Assembly (NCBI GenBank): GCA_016283935.1
Contig: JAEENX010000002.1
Span: 1-64,000, forward strand
Direction: 5' to 3'
From: Bacilli bacterium
GTDB taxonomy: Bacteria; Bacillota_I; Bacilli_A; RF39; UBA660
Length of the DNA stretch: 64,000 nt
In this document: positions 1-15,858 of the stretch, in pieces
Position numbering within the stretch: the first letter of the stretch is position 1
How the letters are laid out: every line of letters begins with the position of its first letter
The notes under the pieces: generated by a model
Seen by the model: only the letters and a program-made list of their open reading frames with translations
What the model was told of the DNA's origin: nothing
Database searches by the model: none
Position numbers and translations under genes: made by a program

Positions 1-1428
1 AATCTTCGCAAGTGGACTCTCTCCTGTTTCTGTTGGTTCATATTCCGCAACATCAGGAAGTAACAATGGTAAATCTTCTTCCTTCATTGGTTGCCATCCA
101 CATTTTTCACAATAAATCATTGGAATAGGTTCTCCCCAGAATCTTTGTCTAGAGAAAATCCAATCTCTCATCTTATAATTATTAACTCTTCTACCGATTC
201 CTTTTTCTTCTAACATATCAGAGATTTTTTCTCTAGCTTCATCAACTACCATACCATTGAATTCTTCTGAGTTAATCATCTTATATCCATGACCACCCAT
301 ATAATCTCCTTTTTCAATAGCATGTTCAGAAATATCACCACAGTCAATTACTTGGATAATCTCTAAGTTATGTTCTTTAGCATATTCAAAGTCTCTTTGA
401 TCATGTGAAGGTACAGCCATAACTGCTCCTGTACCATAATCTCCTAATACGAAATCTCCTAAGAAAATTGGAACTTCTTTTCCATTAACAGGATTAATTG
501 CTTTAACACCTTTAACTTCTACACCTGTTTTACCTTTATTTAATTCAGTTCTATCCATTGCAGATTTCTTTTTAGTTTCTTCTATATAAGCATTTACTTC
601 ATCAACATTTTCTACTCTTGGCATTAATTCTTTAATTAATTTACCATCAGGTGCAATTACAAAGAATGTAATACCATATATAGTTTCAGGACAAGTAGTA
701 AATATACTAAACTTTCCTCCACCTACTATATCAACATTAACTTCCACACCAGTAGATTTACCAATCCAATTGATTTGACCTAATTTTACTTTTTCAGCAA
801 AATGAGTATCATCTAATCCTTTAAGTAAGTCTTCTGAATAAGAAGCCATCTTTAACATCCATTGACTCTTTTCTTTTTGTTCTACTTGAGAACCACATCT
901 TTCACATACTCCACCAGCAGCATCTTCATTTGATAATACTGTCTTACATGTAGGACACCAGTTTACTGGAATAGTATCCTTGTATGCCATATCATGTTTG
1001 TAGAATTGTAAGAATTGCCATTGAGTCCATTTATAATATTCAGGATCAGTTGTAGAGAATTCTCTACTCCAATCAAATGAGAAACCTAAAGTTTTCATTT
1101 GTCCTTTAAATGTTTTAATATTTTCTTTAACAGCATCTTTTGGATGAATATGATTCTTTATTGCATATTGTTCAGCAGGTGCACCAAATGCATCCCATCC
1201 CATTGGATATAATACATTATATCCTTGCATACGCATCATTCTTGCTATAGCATCTTGAGCAGTATAACTTCTAACATGTCCAACATGTAATCCTGCTCCA
1301 GATGGATATGGGAATTCAACTAATATGTAATAAGGATTTTTTCCTTCATTTTTACATTCAAATGTTTTATGTTCATCCCAATATTGTTGCCATTTCTTTT
1401 CAATTTTTAATGTTTCTTGTATTTCCAT
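1..1428 (-). CDS. leuS: Leucyl-tRNA synthetase, N-terminal part (C-terminus beyond window)
   Basis: Class I synthetase that charges tRNA-Leu. 476 codons are present; the frame is still open at base 1, so the C-terminus lies outside the window. The HIGH signature appears as HVGH (residues 48-51) after the LeuRS-typical EFPYPSGAGL. A zinc-ribbon-like CPTC...CERC pair and most of the CP1 editing domain follow. KMSKS would lie beyond the edge. The ATG at 1428 is 2 nt after the stop of the small gene at 1431-1790. Its SD-like AAAGAAAGG lies in that gene's tail, so the two are almost certainly cotranscribed and probably translationally coupled. Expression should be governed by the Leu T-box leader at 1808-1998. 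Confidence 0.97.
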   Translation of the reverse strand, partial: MEIQETLKIEKKWQQYWDEHKTFECKNEGKNPYYILVEFPYPSGAGLHVGHVRSYTAQDAIARMMRMQGYNVLYPMGWDAFGAPAEQYAIKNHIHPKDAVKENIKTFKGQMKTLGFSFDWSREFSTTDPEYYKWTQWQFLQFYKHDMAYKDTIPVNWCPTCKTVLSNEDAAGGVCERCGSQVEQKEKSQWMLKMASYSEDLLKGLDDTHFAEKVKLGQINWIGKSTGVEVNVDIVGGGKFSIFTTCPETIYGITFFVIAPDGKLIKELMPRVENVDEVNAYIEETKKKSAMDRTELNKGKTGVEVKGVKAINPVNGKEVPIFLGDFVLGDYGTGAVMAVPSHDQRDFEYAKEHNLEIIQVIDCGDISEHAIEKGDYMGGHGYKMINSEEFNGMVVDEAREKISDMLEEKGIGRRVNNYKMRDWIFSRQRFWGEPIPMIYCEKCGWQPMKEEDLPLLLPDVAEYEPTETGESPLAKI

Positions 1429-1430
1429 TT

Positions 1431-1790
1431 TTACCAACCTTTCTTCTTTAGTATCTTTCCTATCATGTTATATGATAATAATACAAATACTACACAAAAT
1501 ACGAATGTTATTGCAAATAATATAATCATTCTTGTTACACTACTCATATCTAAAACAAATAGACACATATAAATAGGTACTGATAATAAGAATGAGTCAT
1601 TAAAGACTAATATCTTAGCTAATGTATTTGCTCTCTTTTCATCCATATTTAAATTATATCTTTTTTCTATAAATCTAAATCCGGCAGATCCACCTAATTT
1701 ATTTTTTTTCTTTCTCAGGATATAAGATCCTATATACATGATTAAAAATATAATAAATAATACTATAAAATAATATCCTACATATCTCAT
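1431..1790 (-). CDS. Small three-helix membrane protein between T-box and leuS
   Basis: 119-aa protein of unknown function. It has a hydrophobic N-terminal helix (about residues 5-24), a basic stretch IRRKKKN-like around 25-32, a short soluble segment and two further hydrophobic helices (about 62-80 and 87-110), ending in a Lys-rich tail. The start is supported by a strong AAGGAGG 6-8 nt upstream. It is the first gene after the Leu T-box and stops 2 nt before leuS, so it should be induced with leuS when Leu-tRNA is uncharged. No catalytic motif is seen and I do not recognise the family. A role in leucine or amino-acid stress is inference from position only. Confidence 0.8.
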   Translation of the reverse strand: MRYVGYYFIVLFIIFLIMYIGSYILRKKKNKLGGSAGFRFIEKRYNLNMDEKRANTLAKILVFNDSFLLSVPIYMCLFVLDMSSVTRMIILFAITFVFCVVFVLLSYNMIGKILKKKGW

Positions 1791-1807: not shown

Positions 1808-1998
1808 ATTAAAAAAGCCATTTCATCCAAAGGACGAAATGACTCGTGGTACCACCTTAATTTATACTCATTAAACTATAAAGCGTTTAACCTAACACAT
1901 CCGAAAACAAGTTCATAAATATCTAAATACTATCTTACACCAACCGATAGCTCTCTTTGATTTATCCATTTATTACTACTTTTTCTTCACTTGCTTGA
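1808..1998 (-). promoter_or_regulatory. T-box leader, leucine-specific
   Basis: The minus strand carries the T-box core GGTGGTACCACG (1845-1856) followed by a terminator stem (1832-1843 paired with 1817-1828) and a U-run. Upstream are the stem I elements GAGAG and GGTTGGTG and the specifier region GAACTTG. The GAA-NNN pattern places a CTT (Leu) codon at 1909-1911, which agrees with leuS as the target. Uncharged tRNA-Leu should stabilise the antiterminator. The leader controls the 119-aa membrane protein and leuS. Confidence 0.93.
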
Positions 1999-2003
1999 AA
2001 TAA

Positions 2004-7069: not shown

Positions 7070-7531
7070 CTAAGCTGCATCAAAGCTTGGCTTTCTATTT
7101 AATTCTTTAGTTTTAATGATTTCAGTTATCATCTTAAGCATTTTCTTTGCTGCTCTAAAACTGTGATCATCAAATGGATTAACTGAGTTAGCTATGTAAT
7201 ATCTTACATCTGCTAATTCTGTAACAGTTAATGTTGATAAGTAATTGTAATATAAATCTTTACTAATACTTTCTTTAAGTAAAATAATTAATTCTGACTT
7301 ACCTATTTTATATAGTTTATCATCAATAGCCTTAGTAACAAGAGGTTCACATCTTAAAAACTTATCTAATATTAAACCATTTTCTTCATAGAATACTTTT
7401 TCTTTAAATACTTCTAATTCTTGTTTATTTAATATAGATAATAGTTTAACAAGTGAATCTGTATCAAATGATTTAATACCATTTTCTCTTATAGCACTAA
7501 GAACTTGATTAATCTTAGCTTCACTTATCAT
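7070..7531 (-). CDS. Unknown cytoplasmic helical protein
   Basis: 153 aa, predicted almost entirely alpha-helical and charged, without membrane segments or cysteine motifs. I do not recognise the family. It starts 5 nt after the stop of the 173-aa gene upstream, so the two form a pair, probably cotranscribed. The 3' end contains a small hairpin (AAGCT...AGCTT) followed by a T-run on the minus strand that may terminate the pair. Confidence 0.65.
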   Translation of the reverse strand: MISEAKINQVLSAIRENGIKSFDTDSLVKLLSILNKQELEVFKEKVFYEENGLILDKFLRCEPLVTKAIDDKLYKIGKSELIILLKESISKDLYYNYLSTLTVTELADVRYYIANSVNPFDDHSFRAAKKMLKMITEIIKTKELNRKPSFDAA

Positions 7532-7536
7532 ATTAA

Positions 7537-8058
7537 CTATCCTTTCATATATTCTGATATTGATTTATCAATATTTTTTTCAAATTCTTTATAAGATTGC
7601 ATAAATACTCTTACAAATACATTAAAATGTCTTTTATTAAATATAGGATATATTCTTCTATATACTTCATCAACTGCTACTATTCTAGCTTTAATACCAT
7701 CATTAGGAGAATATGCTTTTGTTTTTCTTACTAATGAATTATATTGCTCTACTAACTTAGTTAAATCAATTTCTACTTTATATATAGATTTTAATTTAGC
7801 TTGATTATATGAACTAGCTCCTGTAATAATAGCTTTTAATATTTCGTTTCTTGTATCATCATCATATTTTTTCATATTAGATACAATATATAAATTCATA
7901 AAGTAATAACCTAATATTACTATTTCATTAAATGAATAAGGGTCTACAATAAACTTTTCTTTTCTTTCAATACCTTTAGAATCAAGTTCTTTGATTATGG
8001 AATAAACCCAATTTATGTTTTCTTGATATAACTTTTTAGTGAGAACATCAAATTCCAT
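7537..8058 (-). CDS. Unknown cytoplasmic helical protein, first of a pair
   Basis: 173 aa, helical, with no signal peptide or transmembrane segment. The central region (about 95-135) is rich in Lys/Arg and Tyr. No family is recognised. It precedes the 153-aa gene by only 5 nt, which suggests joint function. It lies between rpsD and a BRO/DinD-like gene, and neither neighbour points to a role. Confidence 0.65.
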   Translation of the reverse strand: MEFDVLTKKLYQENINWVYSIIKELDSKGIERKEKFIVDPYSFNEIVILGYYFMNLYIVSNMKKYDDDTRNEILKAIITGASSYNQAKLKSIYKVEIDLTKLVEQYNSLVRKTKAYSPNDGIKARIVAVDEVYRRIYPIFNKRHFNVFVRVFMQSYKEFEKNIDKSISEYMKG

Positions 8059-8113
8059 AATACCACTCCTTATCCTATATAAAGTATAACATATTTATAA
8101 TTATAAATACATA

Positions 8114-8965
8114 TTATTTGATGATTTTATTATTATCAATATATTTATATTTTAGATTATTTTTATTTGAAATAGCAGATTTTTTTGTTATATCTTCATA
8201 TGAATCTTTTGCACTTTTTGCAACAGTTCCTCCAAGAATAGCAATATCTTTATTTCCCTTTAAGCCTTTAGGCTTATTTATATTTGCTATGTCTCTTGTA
8301 GCAACTTCACCTAACGTTGTAAGAACTACCTCTATATCAGTCATATTATCTCTTAAGTTTTCTTTTCTTATTCCTTTAAATGATTTATATTCTTGTGCTG
8401 TCATCCCTGACCATGTCTTATATATTTCATTTGTTAGGATTGCATATTCATATGATTCATTTATTCCTCCTTCTTTCCATGTGTTTGTTAGTTTCTTTCT
8501 ATCTATAATTGCTTTTATTCTAATCTCTATCCATTCAAGTGTATATCCTTTCATTAGATAGAAATCTATCATTTGATCTATTCCTTTTGATGGGTCAAAT
8601 ACTTCATCTACTTTCTCTCTTCCTAATCTAGCTAACCATAGTTTAAATGGTTCTGCTTTAGGTGATGGAACAGATTCAATTAATCTAAATATACCTTCTG
8701 TATCAAGAGTATCCGTTAACCTCATTTTCCTATCTGAAGCTCTCATTTTGAATTGGTTAGTATTACTAACCAATTCACTTCCTTCACTGTTTAATTTAGA
8801 TTTCAACCACTTCCAATAATTTCTAGATTTCTCATATGTACTATCAGTTAATGCTTCAATTACATCAACCACACTAAAATGATAATCCTCCAATTCTGAA
8901 TCCCATATACTTCTTATTTGATGCCCTTCAAATAAATTAGATATAGTATTTACTTTTTCTTGCAT
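8114..8965 (-). CDS. BRO-N/DinD-like protein (antirepressor-type)
   Basis: 283 aa. The N-terminal about 110 residues match the BRO-N fold (IRSIWDSELEDYHFSVVDVI...). The C-terminal part resembles bacterial DinD and phage antirepressors, with ILTNEIYKTWSGMTAQEYK and RKENLRDNMTDIEVVLTTLG. BRO-N domains bind DNA, and E. coli DinD is SOS-induced and inhibits RecA. A very strong AAGGAGG precedes the ATG. No phage genes surround it, so it looks like a domesticated or lone gene. I see no SOS box (GAAC-N4-GTTC) upstream, unlike the lexA region. The basic, Asn-rich C-terminal tail may be disordered. Confidence 0.75.
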   Translation of the reverse strand: MQEKVNTISNLFEGHQIRSIWDSELEDYHFSVVDVIEALTDSTYEKSRNYWKWLKSKLNSEGSELVSNTNQFKMRASDRKMRLTDTLDTEGIFRLIESVPSPKAEPFKLWLARLGREKVDEVFDPSKGIDQMIDFYLMKGYTLEWIEIRIKAIIDRKKLTNTWKEGGINESYEYAILTNEIYKTWSGMTAQEYKSFKGIRKENLRDNMTDIEVVLTTLGEVATRDIANINKPKGLKGNKDIAILGGTVAKSAKDSYEDITKKSAISNKNNLKYKYIDNNKIIK

Positions 8966-9086: not shown

Positions 9087-9108
9087 AAGAACTAGTTAAC
9101 TAGTTCTT
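9087..9108 (-). terminator. ileS terminator containing the stop codon
   Basis: Perfect 22-nt palindrome (9087-9108, AAGAACTAGTT and its complement) followed on the minus strand by a T-run. The ileS TAG lies inside the stem. Confidence 0.8.
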
Positions 9109-12100
9109 TTCAATTTTAATAAATACTTCATGACCATTGATGTCTGTAGCTTCTCCATCTTTCTTGTTTTCATATACAAGGGCAAGTGTTTCAGACATTA
9201 TATAATCACTGAATTTTTCAAATGCTTTATTAGTATCAGCATCTCCATCATAATATAACTTAATTCTATCAGCTATATCTAATCCTGAAGATTTTCTTAA
9301 GTTTTGTACTTTAGATACAAATTCTCTTGCTAATCCTTCATAAATTAAATCTTCTGTTAATTCAGTATTTAAAATGATGAATTTATTATTTTGCATTCCA
9401 ACATTAAAGCCTTCTTTAGCATCAATTCTGATATCAACCATATCTGGAGTAATGTCTAATCTTTCTCCATCAAAGTCTACAGTAATTGTTTCTTCTTGAA
9501 GTAATAATGTTTCATCTTCTTCAGATAAATCTTGTAATAATTGTTGATATTCTTTCATCTTAGGACCAAACATTGCACCACAAACTTTGAAGTTTGGTTT
9601 AATGTTGAAATTCATGTATTTAGATAAATCATCTACATATACTACTTCTTTAACATTTAATTCTTCTTTAATTAAGTTAACTAAGTCTCCTAAGATAGAT
9701 TCATATTTACCATCAATTAAGCATTCACTTAATGGTTGTCTAACTTTAATCTTATTTTCTTCTCTTACATATCTACCTGTAGAAATTAAGTCTCTTACTA
9801 AATCCATCTTAACTTCGATTTCTTTATTAATAGCTTTAGTATCAACTGTTGGGAATTCAGCTAAATGAACTGATTCTTCTCCAGTTAAGTTCTTATAGAT
9901 TTCTTCAGTTGTATATGGAATAATTGGAGCAGCAAGCTTACATACACCAGTTAATACTTCGTATGTAGTCATATATACGCTCTTCTTAGAATCATCTAGT
10001 TTAGATGACCAGAATCTATCACGGTTTCTTCTAATATACCAGTTAGATAAATCATCTGATACAAATGAAGTAATTAGTTTAACTACTTGATTTAAATCAT
10101 ATACATCATATGCAGCAGTTACATTTTCAACTAACTTATTATATTTAGATAATAACCATTTATCTATTTCTTCTCTATTTTCATATTTAACATTACATTC
10201 AGAAATATCAATTTCATCGATGTTAGCATATGTTTGGAAGAATGAATATGTATTCTTAAATGGATTAAAGAATTTACTATGAACTTCTTTTAATCCATCT
10301 TCATCAAATTTTAATGGAGTCCAAGTTGGTGATACATAAGCTAAATACCATCTAACTGTATCAGCGCCATATTTTTCAATAGTAGTAAATGGTTCAACAG
10401 CATTACCTTTAGATTTATGCATCTTATGACCAAATTTATCTAATAATAATTCATTTACTAATACATTCTTATAAGGACTCTTACCTGTCATGAATACACC
10501 AATTACGATTAATGAATAGAACCAACCTCTTGTTTGGTCAATTCCTTCAGCAATGAAATCAGCTGGATATTGAGATTCCCATAATTCTTTATTTTCAAAT
10601 GGATAATGATATTGAGCAAATGGCATAGCTCCTGAATCGAACCAGCAGTCAATTACTTCTGGAACTCTATTCATTGTCTTACCACATTCAGGACAAGTCA
10701 TATGAATATCATCAACAAATGGTCTATGTAAATCGATAGTAGCTGGATCAACTTCTTCAATTGCTCTTTCAGCTAATTCTTCTCTAGAGCCAATCATTTC
10801 CATATGTCCACATTCACATCTCCATAATGGTAATGGTGTTCCCCAATATCTTGATCTTGAAATGGCCCAATCATTCATGTTTTCTAACCAGTTTCCAAAA
10901 CGTTTTTCTCCAACGAATGATGGATACCAGTTAACTTTCTTATTTTCAGCTATAATCTTATCTTTTAACTTAGTAACTTCTAAGTAATAAGAAGGTCTTG
11001 AATAATATACTAATGGACTATCACATCTCCAACAATGTGGATAATCGTGTTTAAGTTTTTGTTTCTTAAATAATTTATCATTTTCTTTTAACCATTTAAT
11101 TACTTCAAGGTCTGCATCAAAGATTAACATACCTTTCCATGGTCCTTCAATATAATGAGCATCTTCTCCTACTGGATTAACATATGGTAATTTATATTTC
11201 TTACCAACTTGAGCATCGTCTTCACCAAATGCAGGAGCGATATGAACGATACCTGTACCATCTGACATAGTTACATAATCATCACATGTAACAAAGAATG
11301 CTTTACCAGATACTTTAATATCTGAAGGAATTAATTGTTCATATTCAATATATTCTAAATCTTTACCTTTATATGTTTCTAATACTTTATAATCATCACC
11401 TAATACAGCATTACATAATGCTTTAGCTAAGATGAATTTATAACCCATAGATTCTACTTTTACATATTCTTCTTTTGGATTAACACATAATGCAACATTT
11501 GATACTAATGTCCATGGTGTTGTTGTCCATACTAAGAAATATACATCTTCATCTTTCTTTTTGAATGGAACTATAACTGTGTTAGCATCTACTTCTTTAT
11601 ATCCTTGTGCTACTTCATGTGAAGCTAAACCTGTTCCACATCTAGGACACCAAGGTAAAATCTTAACACCTTCATAGAATAATCCTTCATCAAAGAATTT
11701 CTTTAAGATATACCATTCTGTTTCAATATAATTATTATCATATGTAATATATCTGTTATCTAGATCAATGAATTGTCCCATTTGTTCAGTTAATTTTCTG
11801 AAGGCATTTTCATTGTCCCATACTGTTTCTTTACATAAAGCATTAAATTCTTTAATACCATATTTTTCGATATCAGATTTACCAGTAAAACCTAATTTCT
11901 TTTCAACATTAACTTCTACTGGAAGTCCATGAGTATCCCATCCGATTTTTCTTAATACTCTATGTCCTTTCATTGTTTGATATTTACAGAATGAATCTTT
12001 TAAGAACTTAGCTAACATATGATGTAATCCTGGCATACCATTTGCAGTAGCAGGTCCATCATAGAATACCCAATTATCTTTATCATTCTTAGAATCAATT

Positions 12101-12195
12101 GTTTTGTTTAAGATGTCTTGTTTTTTCCATTCTTCTAAAATTGATTGTTCAACTTCAAAAGTTTTTCTTTTGTCTAATTCTTTAAAACCTTTCAT
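9100..12195 (-). CDS. ileS: Isoleucyl-tRNA synthetase, IleS2 type with GxHH signature
   Basis: 1031 aa; charges tRNA-Ile. Class I features: WVFYDGPATANG, WDTHGLPVE, an editing domain with LVWTTTPWTL (about 221-230), zinc-type CPxC pairs and a KMSKS-like KMHKS at 591-595. The length and sequence style are those of the IleS2 (archaeal/eukaryote-like) branch, which in other bacteria is insensitive to mupirocin. The HIGH position reads GLHH (residues 56-59, bases 12019-12030), with first and third residues swapped relative to HxGH. The same GxHH variant has been described in hyper-resistant IleS2 enzymes. It is preceded by an Ile T-box, and its stop codon lies in its own terminator stem. Confidence 0.97.
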   Translation of the reverse strand: MKGFKELDKRKTFEVEQSILEEWKKQDILNKTIDSKNDKDNWVFYDGPATANGMPGLHHMLAKFLKDSFCKYQTMKGHRVLRKIGWDTHGLPVEVNVEKKLGFTGKSDIEKYGIKEFNALCKETVWDNENAFRKLTEQMGQFIDLDNRYITYDNNYIETEWYILKKFFDEGLFYEGVKILPWCPRCGTGLASHEVAQGYKEVDANTVIVPFKKKDEDVYFLVWTTTPWTLVSNVALCVNPKEEYVKVESMGYKFILAKALCNAVLGDDYKVLETYKGKDLEYIEYEQLIPSDIKVSGKAFFVTCDDYVTMSDGTGIVHIAPAFGEDDAQVGKKYKLPYVNPVGEDAHYIEGPWKGMLIFDADLEVIKWLKENDKLFKKQKLKHDYPHCWRCDSPLVYYSRPSYYLEVTKLKDKIIAENKKVNWYPSFVGEKRFGNWLENMNDWAISRSRYWGTPLPLWRCECGHMEMIGSREELAERAIEEVDPATIDLHRPFVDDIHMTCPECGKTMNRVPEVIDCWFDSGAMPFAQYHYPFENKELWESQYPADFIAEGIDQTRGWFYSLIVIGVFMTGKSPYKNVLVNELLLDKFGHKMHKSKGNAVEPFTTIEKYGADTVRWYLAYVSPTWTPLKFDEDGLKEVHSKFFNPFKNTYSFFQTYANIDEIDISECNVKYENREEIDKWLLSKYNKLVENVTAAYDVYDLNQVVKLITSFVSDDLSNWYIRRNRDRFWSSKLDDSKKSVYMTTYEVLTGVCKLAAPIIPYTTEEIYKNLTGEESVHLAEFPTVDTKAINKEIEVKMDLVRDLISTGRYVREENKIKVRQPLSECLIDGKYESILGDLVNLIKEELNVKEVVYVDDLSKYMNFNIKPNFKVCGAMFGPKMKEYQQLLQDLSEEDETLLLQEETITVDFDGERLDITPDMVDIRIDAKEGFNVGMQNNKFIILNTELTEDLIYEGLAREFVSKVQNLRKSSGLDIADRIKLYYDGDADTNKAFEKFSDYIMSETLALVYENKKDGEATDINGHEVFIKIEKN

Positions 12196-12219: not shown

Positions 12220-12452
12220 ATAAAAAAACTCAATGAGTTAAGGGCGATGTGAGTTACACCGTGGTACCACCTTAATTCATGAGTTTTATTCATGCACTTA
12301 ATCTCGTAACGTGAGTTAATCCGTACTAAACTTATCCTTTAGTCACATCAGAAGTGATCTATATATATCTTTTCTTAATTTATCTTTCACCAATACGATA
12401 AACTCTCTTGTAAGTACTTAATATATACCGTCTTCGTCATTTGTTTTATACT
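12220..12452 (-). promoter_or_regulatory. T-box leader, isoleucine-specific
   Basis: T-box core GGTGGTACCACG on the minus strand (12260-12271), with stem I hallmarks GAGAG and TATTGGTG upstream. The candidate specifier is ATC (12356-12358) in AGATCACTTC, which agrees with ileS. Competing terminator and antiterminator helices around 12222-12275 end in a T-run. Uncharged tRNA-Ile should allow read-through into ileS. Confidence 0.92.
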
Positions 12453-12491: not shown

Positions 12492-13574
12492 TTAGTCTAA
12501 ATCATCTTTATTAGCATCATCTAATTTTTTAGATGATATCATCATTAAACCATTTTTTCCTTCTTTAACATTTTTTCTATCTATCTTCTTAGCTTTTGTT
12601 AACTTAGGCATATCTTTTTTTGTTACTTTCTTCTTAGGTGTTTCATCAACTAATTCTTCAATCTTTTCTTCCATCTTAGGTGTTTCTACTACATTAGCTT
12701 TTGATGAATTAAATACACTTACATCAACTGCTCTGAAATCACGTGAAGAATCAAATTTAACATCTTCTCTTTTAGCAACATTATCTTTAAATGGATCAAA
12801 TGCACCTAATTCTAATTTATTCTTAGGCTCTTCTTTAGGCTTCTCACCTATTTGTTTAATTTCTTCTATATTAAATCTATAGTCATCTCTATTAAAGCGT
12901 TTACTTGTAACTTTCTTAGACATTTCTCTTTCTCTATGAGTTCTAAATATATCATTCTTAGTTGGTAATAATACTATTAATAATAATATTAAACATATTA
13001 TTGCTACTACTATTAAGAATCTTGTTAAATACTCAGAGATTGTATGTTTTATTCTTAAATTAGTATTTATATCTGTATAAGATAGAGATACTCTATTTAA
13101 TGTTTCACGATTAATATCAATTTCTATACCATCATATTTATATTTAGATATATTATCACTTGAATAAGCTTTAATATCTTTTATATCAATAAAATCATCT
13201 TTACCTATTTTAAATGAATTTAAAGCTTTGAAAGTTAAAACAGCATATTCTACTCCATCATAGTCTTGATCTAATTTACTTTCAATTTTTACTTTTCTAT
13301 ATCTTCCATCTTTTATTAATGTACCAGTTTCAATAGAAAAACTATTTAATGGTTTAGCATCAATAAATTCTAAGTTTCTACCATTATATGTGATTTCTTG
13401 TTCAATTGAACTTACATATTCTCCTGAATACGAAAGAATAATATAAAAATAATTACTCTTATCTAATTCTTCTGTTTGTAACGAAGCTTTAGGAGAAAAC
13501 TTAGATGACTCTGCATATACAGGTAAAGTAATTACCATTAATAAAACTAATAATATTTTAAATACATTCTTCAT
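12492..13574 (-). CDS. Membrane-anchored cohesin-like protein
   Basis: 360 aa. A signal peptide (about 1-21, ending PVYA) precedes a beta-rich extracellular domain (about 25-155). Its EFIDAKPLNSFSIETG and VEYAVLTFKAL segments look like a cohesin or carbohydrate-binding-type fold. A single transmembrane helix (about 185-203) leads to a long Lys/Glu-rich cytoplasmic tail (about 160 aa). It is a shorter relative of the gene upstream, which has the same N-terminal architecture and stops 10 nt before this start, so the pair is an operon. A link between an outside protein-binding domain and a cytoplasmic partner is plausible. No partner is identified. Confidence 0.7.
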   Translation of the reverse strand: MKNVFKILLVLLMVITLPVYAESSKFSPKASLQTEELDKSNYFYIILSYSGEYVSSIEQEITYNGRNLEFIDAKPLNSFSIETGTLIKDGRYRKVKIESKLDQDYDGVEYAVLTFKALNSFKIGKDDFIDIKDIKAYSSDNISKYKYDGIEIDINRETLNRVSLSYTDINTNLRIKHTISEYLTRFLIVVAIICLILLLIVLLPTKNDIFRTHREREMSKKVTSKRFNRDDYRFNIEEIKQIGEKPKEEPKNKLELGAFDPFKDNVAKREDVKFDSSRDFRAVDVSVFNSSKANVVETPKMEEKIEELVDETPKKKVTKKDMPKLTKAKKIDRKNVKEGKNGLMMISSKKLDDANKDDLD

Positions 13575-13584
13575 ATATTTCCTC

Positions 13585-15858
13585 CTATTTCATTACACAA
13601 TCTGTGCCTTCTATTTTTACATCAAATACATATCTATAACCATTGAATGCTATACCCGCTTCTGACATAGATGTTTTTTCAACTGATTTTGGATTAATTA
13701 CTGTAGAACCACAATACAACTTCAAGTTAGAAGTAAATGATGATTCAAATAATGTTATTCCCTTAACAGTAGAATGATATTCTCCAGTAGTTGAATATAT
13801 CTCACGATTATTATATGTGAATCTTTGAGTATATTTCTTTGGTTTCATATTAATTGTACATGTACCACTATACTCTGCAATACTACCAGAGAATTTTCTA
13901 GTATTTGGATCAAAACTATAATCTTTGAATCCACCATTACATATTACATTTTGATATTCATAATGATCATCAAATTTTACTGTACTAGTAATCATTGTAT
14001 CAACAGCTTGATTCTTCATATTTATTACATTATTTTCTATTCTACGATCACTATCATGATAATTTATATTAACATTTGCATTAATTGAATTAGATTTACC
14101 AAAGGTAATGGAACAATTTGATTGATTAATTACATTTGAAATTGTAACAGTATATCCATTATGAGTGATATTACCTGATGTACAGAATAATCCATTTAAA
14201 TTTTGATATCCTTCACCATTTGGATATACATTGAATGTGATTGATCCATCATATGGTAATTCAACACTGTCATAATCACCAGAACCATTAAAATATGATA
14301 TTTGAACTTTATATTTTGTTGTTTCACCATTAGATGCATCTTTTGTAACTGGTGTTTTAGTTGTAAATTCTTTAGGAGTATAAACAACTTCTCCATCTGA
14401 ATTTCTAGTCTCACCACTTGTAGTTGTTCCACCATTATTATTAATTGGTGGATTAGTATTATCGTGTTTCCATTTACCATTTGCTGTAGTTCTTACTTTA
14501 GTTGTTCCATTCTTAGTTGTTCTAACATACCTACTTGTTGATTTTAAGTTAAATGTTGCTTGTGGTTTACTATCTGAAACTGTCATAGTATCTTGAATAA
14601 TAGTTATATTATTTATATCTTTAAGAGCAATAATATCTAACATATCAATAGAATTATCATTATTGATATCATATTCAGCACTCCAAGCCATATTTCCTAA
14701 AATCATATTTCTTAGATTATTCATTTCATCATCTGAAATAGCTTTTACTGATGATAAATTAAATAATCCAAATACTAATAATAATCCTAAGAATACTCCT
14801 AATTTTGAATTATTATCATCTTGTAAACTTTGATTTGTTAAATTATCTAAATTAACAGCACCTTCTGTTGATATTTCAGATGTTGTTGTATCATCATCAT
14901 ATGCATATCCATTTGATGATTCAGTAAATGATGAAAAATCATCTGGTAACATATTTTCATCACCAGTATCTTGATTTCCAATGAATACTCCTCTTTCAGG
15001 AATAATTTCTTGTTGAACTGGTGCTACTGGTTCTGCTTTCATCAAATCATTTATATTAGCTTGATGTGCTTGAACAGGTTGTTCTTTAACTTTTTTCTTT
15101 CCCCATTTACCAAGTTTAGCAATTCTAATTTTTTCAGGTTTGTCATCATCATCTATAGTTTTAAATTTCTTTGGTACTTTAGCAAATCTCATCTTTTTAA
15201 CTATATGATTATGATCATGTTTTTTATTATATTCTCTTAAATCTTTAGTAATAATTGTATATCTTATAATTATAAATGCAAATATAATAGCACCTAAGCA
15301 ATATAATACTTTTTTCCAGTTATTATTTAAGTACATATTAATTTGAGTCATGAAAGTTTGTTCTTGAGCAACATAAGATACTGTTCCATCTTTATCATAG
15401 AATACTGTAAAAGTCATAGATGGAGCAGTTTTTAATAACTCATCTGCTGTAGCAACTTTATTATTTGAAAAGTATATCTCAGTTCTTTCACCTGGTTTAA
15501 AATCTTCTTTAATTCTAAAAGTTAAATTAGCATAGTATACTTTTTGAAATCCATAGTCTGAATCTGCTAATATTTTAAATGATTTAAATACTCCATTTGT
15601 TAAATCTTTTCCTTTAGTAACAGTAAAATAATCATTTCCTTCAATACTTACAAATTCTAATTTTTCTTGATTATATACAACAGAGCTCATTACGGCCATT
15701 GTACTTTCTTCTCTTAAACCAAGTTGGATAGTAAATGTATTATCTTTAAGTTCATTTTCCATTTTATATAATACTTCATATTGAACATCTGAAGCATATA
15801 CATTAGATATAAAGAATGTAAAAATCAAAGTTATTATTAATAATAATTTCTTCTTCAT
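13585..15858 (-). CDS. Two-part surface protein: cohesin-like domain, two membrane segments, dockerin-like motif
   Basis: 757 aa. Order: signal peptide (1-22); cohesin-like beta domain (about 27-155, EKLEFVSIEGNDYF... YYANLTFRI); transmembrane helix (about 183-201); Lys-rich then acidic cytoplasmic linker (about 202-350); a second hydrophobic segment that itself looks like a signal peptide (KLGVFLGLLLVFGLFNLSSV, 352-371); a dockerin-type calcium loop (DINNDNSIDMLD, 397-408: D-x-N-x-D-x-x-I-D-x-x-D); a Thr/Gly/Asn linker; and Cys-containing beta repeats to the end. Only one dockerin half-repeat is visible. The layout suggests fusion of a cohesin-membrane protein with a secreted dockerin-bearing protein. 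It forms an operon with the 360-aa relative downstream. Confidence 0.7.
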   Translation of the reverse strand: MKKKLLLIITLIFTFFISNVYASDVQYEVLYKMENELKDNTFTIQLGLREESTMAVMSSVVYNQEKLEFVSIEGNDYFTVTKGKDLTNGVFKSFKILADSDYGFQKVYYANLTFRIKEDFKPGERTEIYFSNNKVATADELLKTAPSMTFTVFYDKDGTVSYVAQEQTFMTQINMYLNNNWKKVLYCLGAIIFAFIIIRYTIITKDLREYNKKHDHNHIVKKMRFAKVPKKFKTIDDDDKPEKIRIAKLGKWGKKKVKEQPVQAHQANINDLMKAEPVAPVQQEIIPERGVFIGNQDTGDENMLPDDFSSFTESSNGYAYDDDTTTSEISTEGAVNLDNLTNQSLQDDNNSKLGVFLGLLLVFGLFNLSSVKAISDDEMNNLRNMILGNMAWSAEYDINNDNSIDMLDIIALKDINNITIIQDTMTVSDSKPQATFNLKSTSRYVRTTKNGTTKVRTTANGKWKHDNTNPPINNNGGTTTSGETRNSDGEVVYTPKEFTTKTPVTKDASNGETTKYKVQISYFNGSGDYDSVELPYDGSITFNVYPNGEGYQNLNGLFCTSGNITHNGYTVTISNVINQSNCSITFGKSNSINANVNINYHDSDRRIENNVINMKNQAVDTMITSTVKFDDHYEYQNVICNGGFKDYSFDPNTRKFSGSIAEYSGTCTINMKPKKYTQRFTYNNREIYSTTGEYHSTVKGITLFESSFTSNLKLYCGSTVINPKSVEKTSMSEAGIAFNGYRYVFDVKIEGTDCVMK

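Follow-up and report, generated by a model that had tools for sequence, protein, structure and literature searches.

Does the ileS gene in this stretch of DNA (the window, 64,000 nt in its whole length) code for the cell's own isoleucyl-tRNA synthetase (IleRS), and is mupirocin insensitivity to be expected from its unusual class I signature? The first-pass annotation had placed the enzyme beside a published type 2 group with an exchanged signature and extreme mupirocin resistance. Such a group does exist. In the accessible text of Brkic et al. 2023 (PMC10485003), to which all our statements on that paper refer, 379 IleRS were analysed; the type 2 enzymes (IleRS2) comprise 86 with G/AxHH and 77 with HxGH, and all IleRS1 have HxGH. 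In the swapped IleRS2 the first and third motif positions are exchanged, the first being Gly or rarely Ala, and the group is linked to a Ki for mupirocin in the mM range.

Signatures and predicted properties of the enzyme

The window protein scores 938.5 bits against TIGR00392 (isoleucine--tRNA ligase, NCBIfam; cut-off 621.4) and has all domains (Pfam tRNA-synt_1, Anticodon_1 and DUF5915). Its best PDB sequences are 8c8w, 8c8u, 8c8v and 8c9d, aligned over residues 5–1028. In the translated open reading frame the signature stands in the context DGPATANGMP-GLHH-MLAKFLKDSF; its coding DNA, GGATTACATCAT, forms the final part of a pattern match at 12019–12060 on the minus strand (Table 1). More specifically, the counterpart of GLHH is GVHH in the P. 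megaterium IleRS2 chain 8c8w, and HVGH both in the other chains of that enzyme (8c8u, 8c8v, 8c9d) and in T. thermophilus 1ile. The column is therefore homologous, and the annotated reading, an exchange of the first and third residues of HIGH after DGPATANGMP, is correct. KMHKS, also recognised in the annotation, aligns with KMSKS of P. megaterium IleRS2. The enzyme is without an ordinary KMSKS, which is a general class I feature and, in the accessible text of PMC10485003, not a stated definer of the G/AxHH group; KMHKS is a further departure from consensus, beyond GLHH. For KMHKS, open-access PMC literature gave no related paper.

Table 1. Features of the ileS locus in the window
Feature	Position	Strand	Details
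ileS, type 2 isoleucyl-tRNA synthetase	9100..12195	(-)	1031 aa; TIGR00392, Pfam and PDB matches
Class I HxGH signature in swapped form, GLHH	12019..12030	(-)	residues 56–59
KMHKS, variant of the KMSKS signature	10411..10425	(-)	residues 591–595
T-box leader of ileS	12237..12449	(-)	RF00230, full model 1–219
Likely T-box specifier codon AUC (Ile)	12356..12358	(-)	sequence and RF00230 alignment, placed by eye

The type of the enzyme was read from two trees. Out of 219 loci, 196 had an IleRS ORF of ≥500 aa and >250 bits, and 189 were left after identical copies had been dropped. Tree 1 holds 136 rows of ≥880 aa, leaving out shorter pieces limited by contig edges or flanks and copies of the window; in tree 2 (122 rows) only 10 IleRS1 rows were kept, two copies and L218 were removed and newly searched family rows were added. 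Both were made by a quick method with midpoint root and SH-aLRT support only, and placements of long branches (L216, L217, L218 and others in tree 1, the divergent DGPITANN clade L232–L236 in tree 2) are unsure. In both trees IleRS1 is split from IleRS2 at support 100, and the window enzyme lies inside a family-wide GxHH clade that adjoins Acetoanaerobium noterae. Its separation from all 35 IleRS1 rows agrees with the annotation as IleS2. Judged by its sequence, the window enzyme is a type 2 IleRS of the G/AxHH group.

The enzyme shares type 2, Gly/Ala in the first position and His in the third with the G/AxHH IleRS2 of S. griseus and D. radiodurans (PMC10485003), for which a sole housekeeping role is possible too; their hyper-resistance is predicted for the window enzyme. 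Unlike them, it carries KMHKS, belongs to a small-genome uncultured lineage and is known from sequence; in the accessible text neither of the natural hyper-resistant enzymes studied, D. radiodurans (ALHH) and S. griseus, is stated as KMHKS. Natural IleRS2 of Priestia megaterium differs in having HVGH and KMSKS, and that species carries IleRS1 besides IleRS2 (PMC10485003). The IleRS2 of A. noterae (NZ_CP154629.1, L215; 56.1% identity over 100% of query) has GIHH as well; it differs in coming from Clostridia and in having KMSKS, and the database entry labels its 2.6-Mb replicon a 'plasmid'.

According to PMC10485003, natural D. radiodurans IleRS2 has a mupirocin Ki of 6.6 mM, which falls 823-fold on conversion to the canonical motif, and GVHH placed in two canonical IleRS2 raises Ki ~200-fold or more. 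The third His sits at the place of the catalytic nitrogen of the first and clashes with mupirocin. It is most likely that His58, the third motif position of the window enzyme, stands in for the absent first histidine in the transition state, which would be feasible because in IleRS2 the motif helix is shifted and leaves room; the side chain of His58 would clash with mupirocin. The predicted outcome is near-normal isoleucine activation with a mupirocin Ki of about the mM range. Note that in P. megaterium and T. thermophilus the GVHH mutation lowered activity, with a loss of up to 10-fold in kcat or KM (PMC10485003); an insensitive enzyme is therefore not bound to be fully active in every background. 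Mupirocin insensitivity is the most likely property of the window enzyme, carried over, like its predicted catalysis and geometry, from published enzymes; sequence, family, sole detected copy, T-box and lineage-wide conservation are seen directly. We consider it highly probable that this is the cell's own T-box-regulated IleRS, of type 2 and the G/AxHH group, and that it would be active and mupirocin-insensitive as the studied enzymes are. In open-access PMC literature on IleRS2 and GXHH since 2023, the motif is treated only by PMC10485003 among the matches listed.

Spread and variation of the signature in the family

The spread of GxHH was followed with the exact pattern D-G-P-x-x-A-N-x-x-P-[G/A]-x-H-H (42 bases); the counts apply to the genomes sampled, and an exact pattern gives underestimates. 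In the window's family 221 of 291 genomes matched, mostly judged from the 42-base match, and reversed-pattern control columns gave zero matches in the same search. An HxGH pattern matched 33 genomes, 32 of them with IleRS1-type enzymes and one (G057) with an enzyme of IleRS2 length and HVGH. The remaining 37 genomes were searched with TIGR00392 and their motifs then read. Eight further GxHH enzymes were found (G015, G082, G083, G089, G119, G144, G153, G254), together with four that have Lys or Arg first (G094, G154, G204, G222), two IleRS1 with HCGH (G053, G284), one IleRS1 with HIGT (G108) and two IleRS2 ending before the motif (G140, G148); 20 genomes had no ileS match above cut-off. The 291 genomes hence comprise 229 GxHH, 4 K/RxHH and 1 HxGH IleRS2, 34 HxGH and 1 HxGT IleRS1, 2 cut and 20 without. 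GxHH is the usual ileS state in most sampled genomes of the family. In a sample of the class it occurs in 29 of 296 genomes, all of them among the 38 from this family, and the exact pattern found none in the other 258; IleRS2-type HxGH occurs in 10 of the 296, none from the family.

An assembly error at the motif codons, which the annotation had kept in mind, or chance is ruled out, since an IleRS of 97% identity from a second genome in the genus (G009, L025) also has GLHH and KMHKS and many relatives share the swapped motif. The two signatures do not travel strictly together. KMHKS accompanies 60 of the 96 GxHH rows of tree 1 and is lacking in 36, and therefore it cannot be a prerequisite of GxHH; it is also found in one HIGH row. 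The supported branches force at least five changes of the KMHKS-with-GxHH label, which means that KMHKS comes and goes. Near the window enzyme there are seven rows with GIHH and KMSKS, five from the same genus. A separate acquisition of these same-genus DGPIYANAKP-GIHH enzymes is rejected, as both trees nest them beside the window enzyme.

Near-fixation of GxHH across the main IleRS2 clade of the family can be read in another way. The swap may be a neutral lineage marker inherited from an ancient IleRS2, with no present mupirocin-like selection and with insensitivity as a by-product. This departs from our best explanation solely in the reason given for the motif's retention. Record titles of many relatives point to samples from animal gut or rumen, and we know of no mupirocin producer in these habitats. 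However, L054, an enzyme nested in the clade, reads HIGH, showing that the motif can change; near-fixation is then not due to a lack of variation. On balance we give neutral retention about an even chance.

L054 comes from a MAG (genome G625, contig of 3,204 bases, titled as one of the 'Lapin' series), has HIGH at about 424–435 together with KMHKS inside the GxHH clade, and is accompanied by no further ileS above cut-off in G625. It appears to be a nested natural reversion to HIGH in a sole ileS. The change, HIGHLFGK as compared to GLHHMLAK in the window enzyme, spans several adjacent codons and for this reason is not one sequencing error, but it was seen in one contig only.

Two other variants were noticed. 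A basic first position is found in L229 (G204, RVHH), L231 (G154, KLHH), L235 (G222, KIHH) and L236 (G094, KIHH), that is in 4 of 291 family genomes from three genera; the tree requires three changes, and supported branches force two. This is different from the Gly or rarely Ala of PMC10485003, and among the matches listed in open-access PMC literature no description of a K/RxHH signature was found. In the divergent DGPITANN-type IleRS2 clade (L232–L236; G057, G089, G119, G222, G094) HVGH, GIHH and KIHH coexist, and no KMSKS-like string was found there by pattern. The second variant, HxGT, with Thr in place of His at the fourth position, was found by pattern search in IleRS1-type frames of 23 of 255 class genomes from six families, and was read within two full IleRS1 proteins (L031, L223). 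IleRS1 of PMC10485003, in contrast, are HxGH throughout, and neither an isoleucyl-tRNA synthetase with HIGT nor a tRNA synthetase with HXGT turned up in open-access PMC literature. With the catalytic His in the third position, the first would be freed and may even turn basic. Tentatively, at a little under even chances and provided that such variants are active, we suggest that HIGH in IleRS2 stands for a histidine movable in both directions and not for a fixed string. GLHH itself is an expected member of the published group, and it is K/RxHH, the HIGH reversion and HxGT that go beyond the 2023 paper as far as its accessible text extends.

Copy number, control and meaning for the family

According to PMC10485003, IleRS2 can be either the sole or the second ileS of a genome. 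A profile search of the contigs of the window's own genome (a draft of 1,291,637 bases in 27 contigs, 96.52% complete) gave a single match above the TIGR00392 cut-off. A second, canonical ileS above cut-off was thus not found, within the limit set by 96.5% completeness. Other matches reach ≤193 bits, are partial and lie in other open frames; one of them is leuS at the window start. The 5' part of this leuS (window 1–1437, minus strand) has the canonical HVGH. A second T-box (1827–1999, minus strand) lies upstream of leuS, with a 119-aa ORF (1431–1790) in between.

The leader of ileS scores 90.9 bits against RF00230, slightly below the Rfam gathering score of 93 (E 1.1e-20 over 411 bases). A T-box directly upstream of ileS was found in all six relatives tested (chosen from 80 loci), at 93.8–112 bits, in line with the annotated T-box regulation. 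Five ORFs flanking ileS (153, 173, 283, 360 and 757 aa; 7070–8965 and 12492–15858 (-)) have no NCBIfam match, and the 360- and 757-aa ORFs start with signal-like hydrophobic N-terminal stretches.

It could be argued that the IleRS2 serves for resistance as an accessory gene, the main enzyme being a canonical IleRS1 missed in the draft. At 96.5% completeness a gene could be missing, and G119 pairs a GIHH IleRS with a second, partial IleRS match on a separate contig. This is very improbable given the T-box control of ileS in the window and in six of six relatives; moreover, a comparison of the tables by eye showed that none of the 33 HxGH-pattern genomes also matches GxHH among the matches listed. 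An accessory gene of MupA/MupB type is rejected, as the sole ileS detected misses both NCBIfam cut-offs (890.1 bits for MupA and 885.9 for MupB; exception cut-off 1900). Staphylococcal plasmid MupA (L216) lies on the IleRS2 side like the window enzyme (41.8% identity over 94% of query) and differs in having HTGH and in being plasmid-borne. A plasmid origin is likewise rejected, all 274 plasmid records matched being below 60% identity to the window IleRS. The sole detected copy, the MupA/MupB scores and the T-box leader bear out the annotation of ileS as housekeeping and not accessory. Least probable of all is a degenerate or repurposed synthetase paralogue marked by GLHH and KMHKS, because, even with both class I signatures deviating from consensus, the gene is the sole ileS above cut-off in its genome, all domains are present and GxHH with KMHKS recurs in 60 of 136 tree rows.

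Based on these results, the housekeeping IleRS of the window is most likely insensitive to mupirocin. A motif published as an extraordinary means of resistance is the usual ileS state in most sampled genomes of this small-genome family, and the bacteria concerned should, by analogy with the published enzymes, tolerate mupirocin naturally. K/RxHH, the HIGH reversion and HxGT in IleRS1 provide a natural series on how class I synthetases tolerate relocation of the key histidine.
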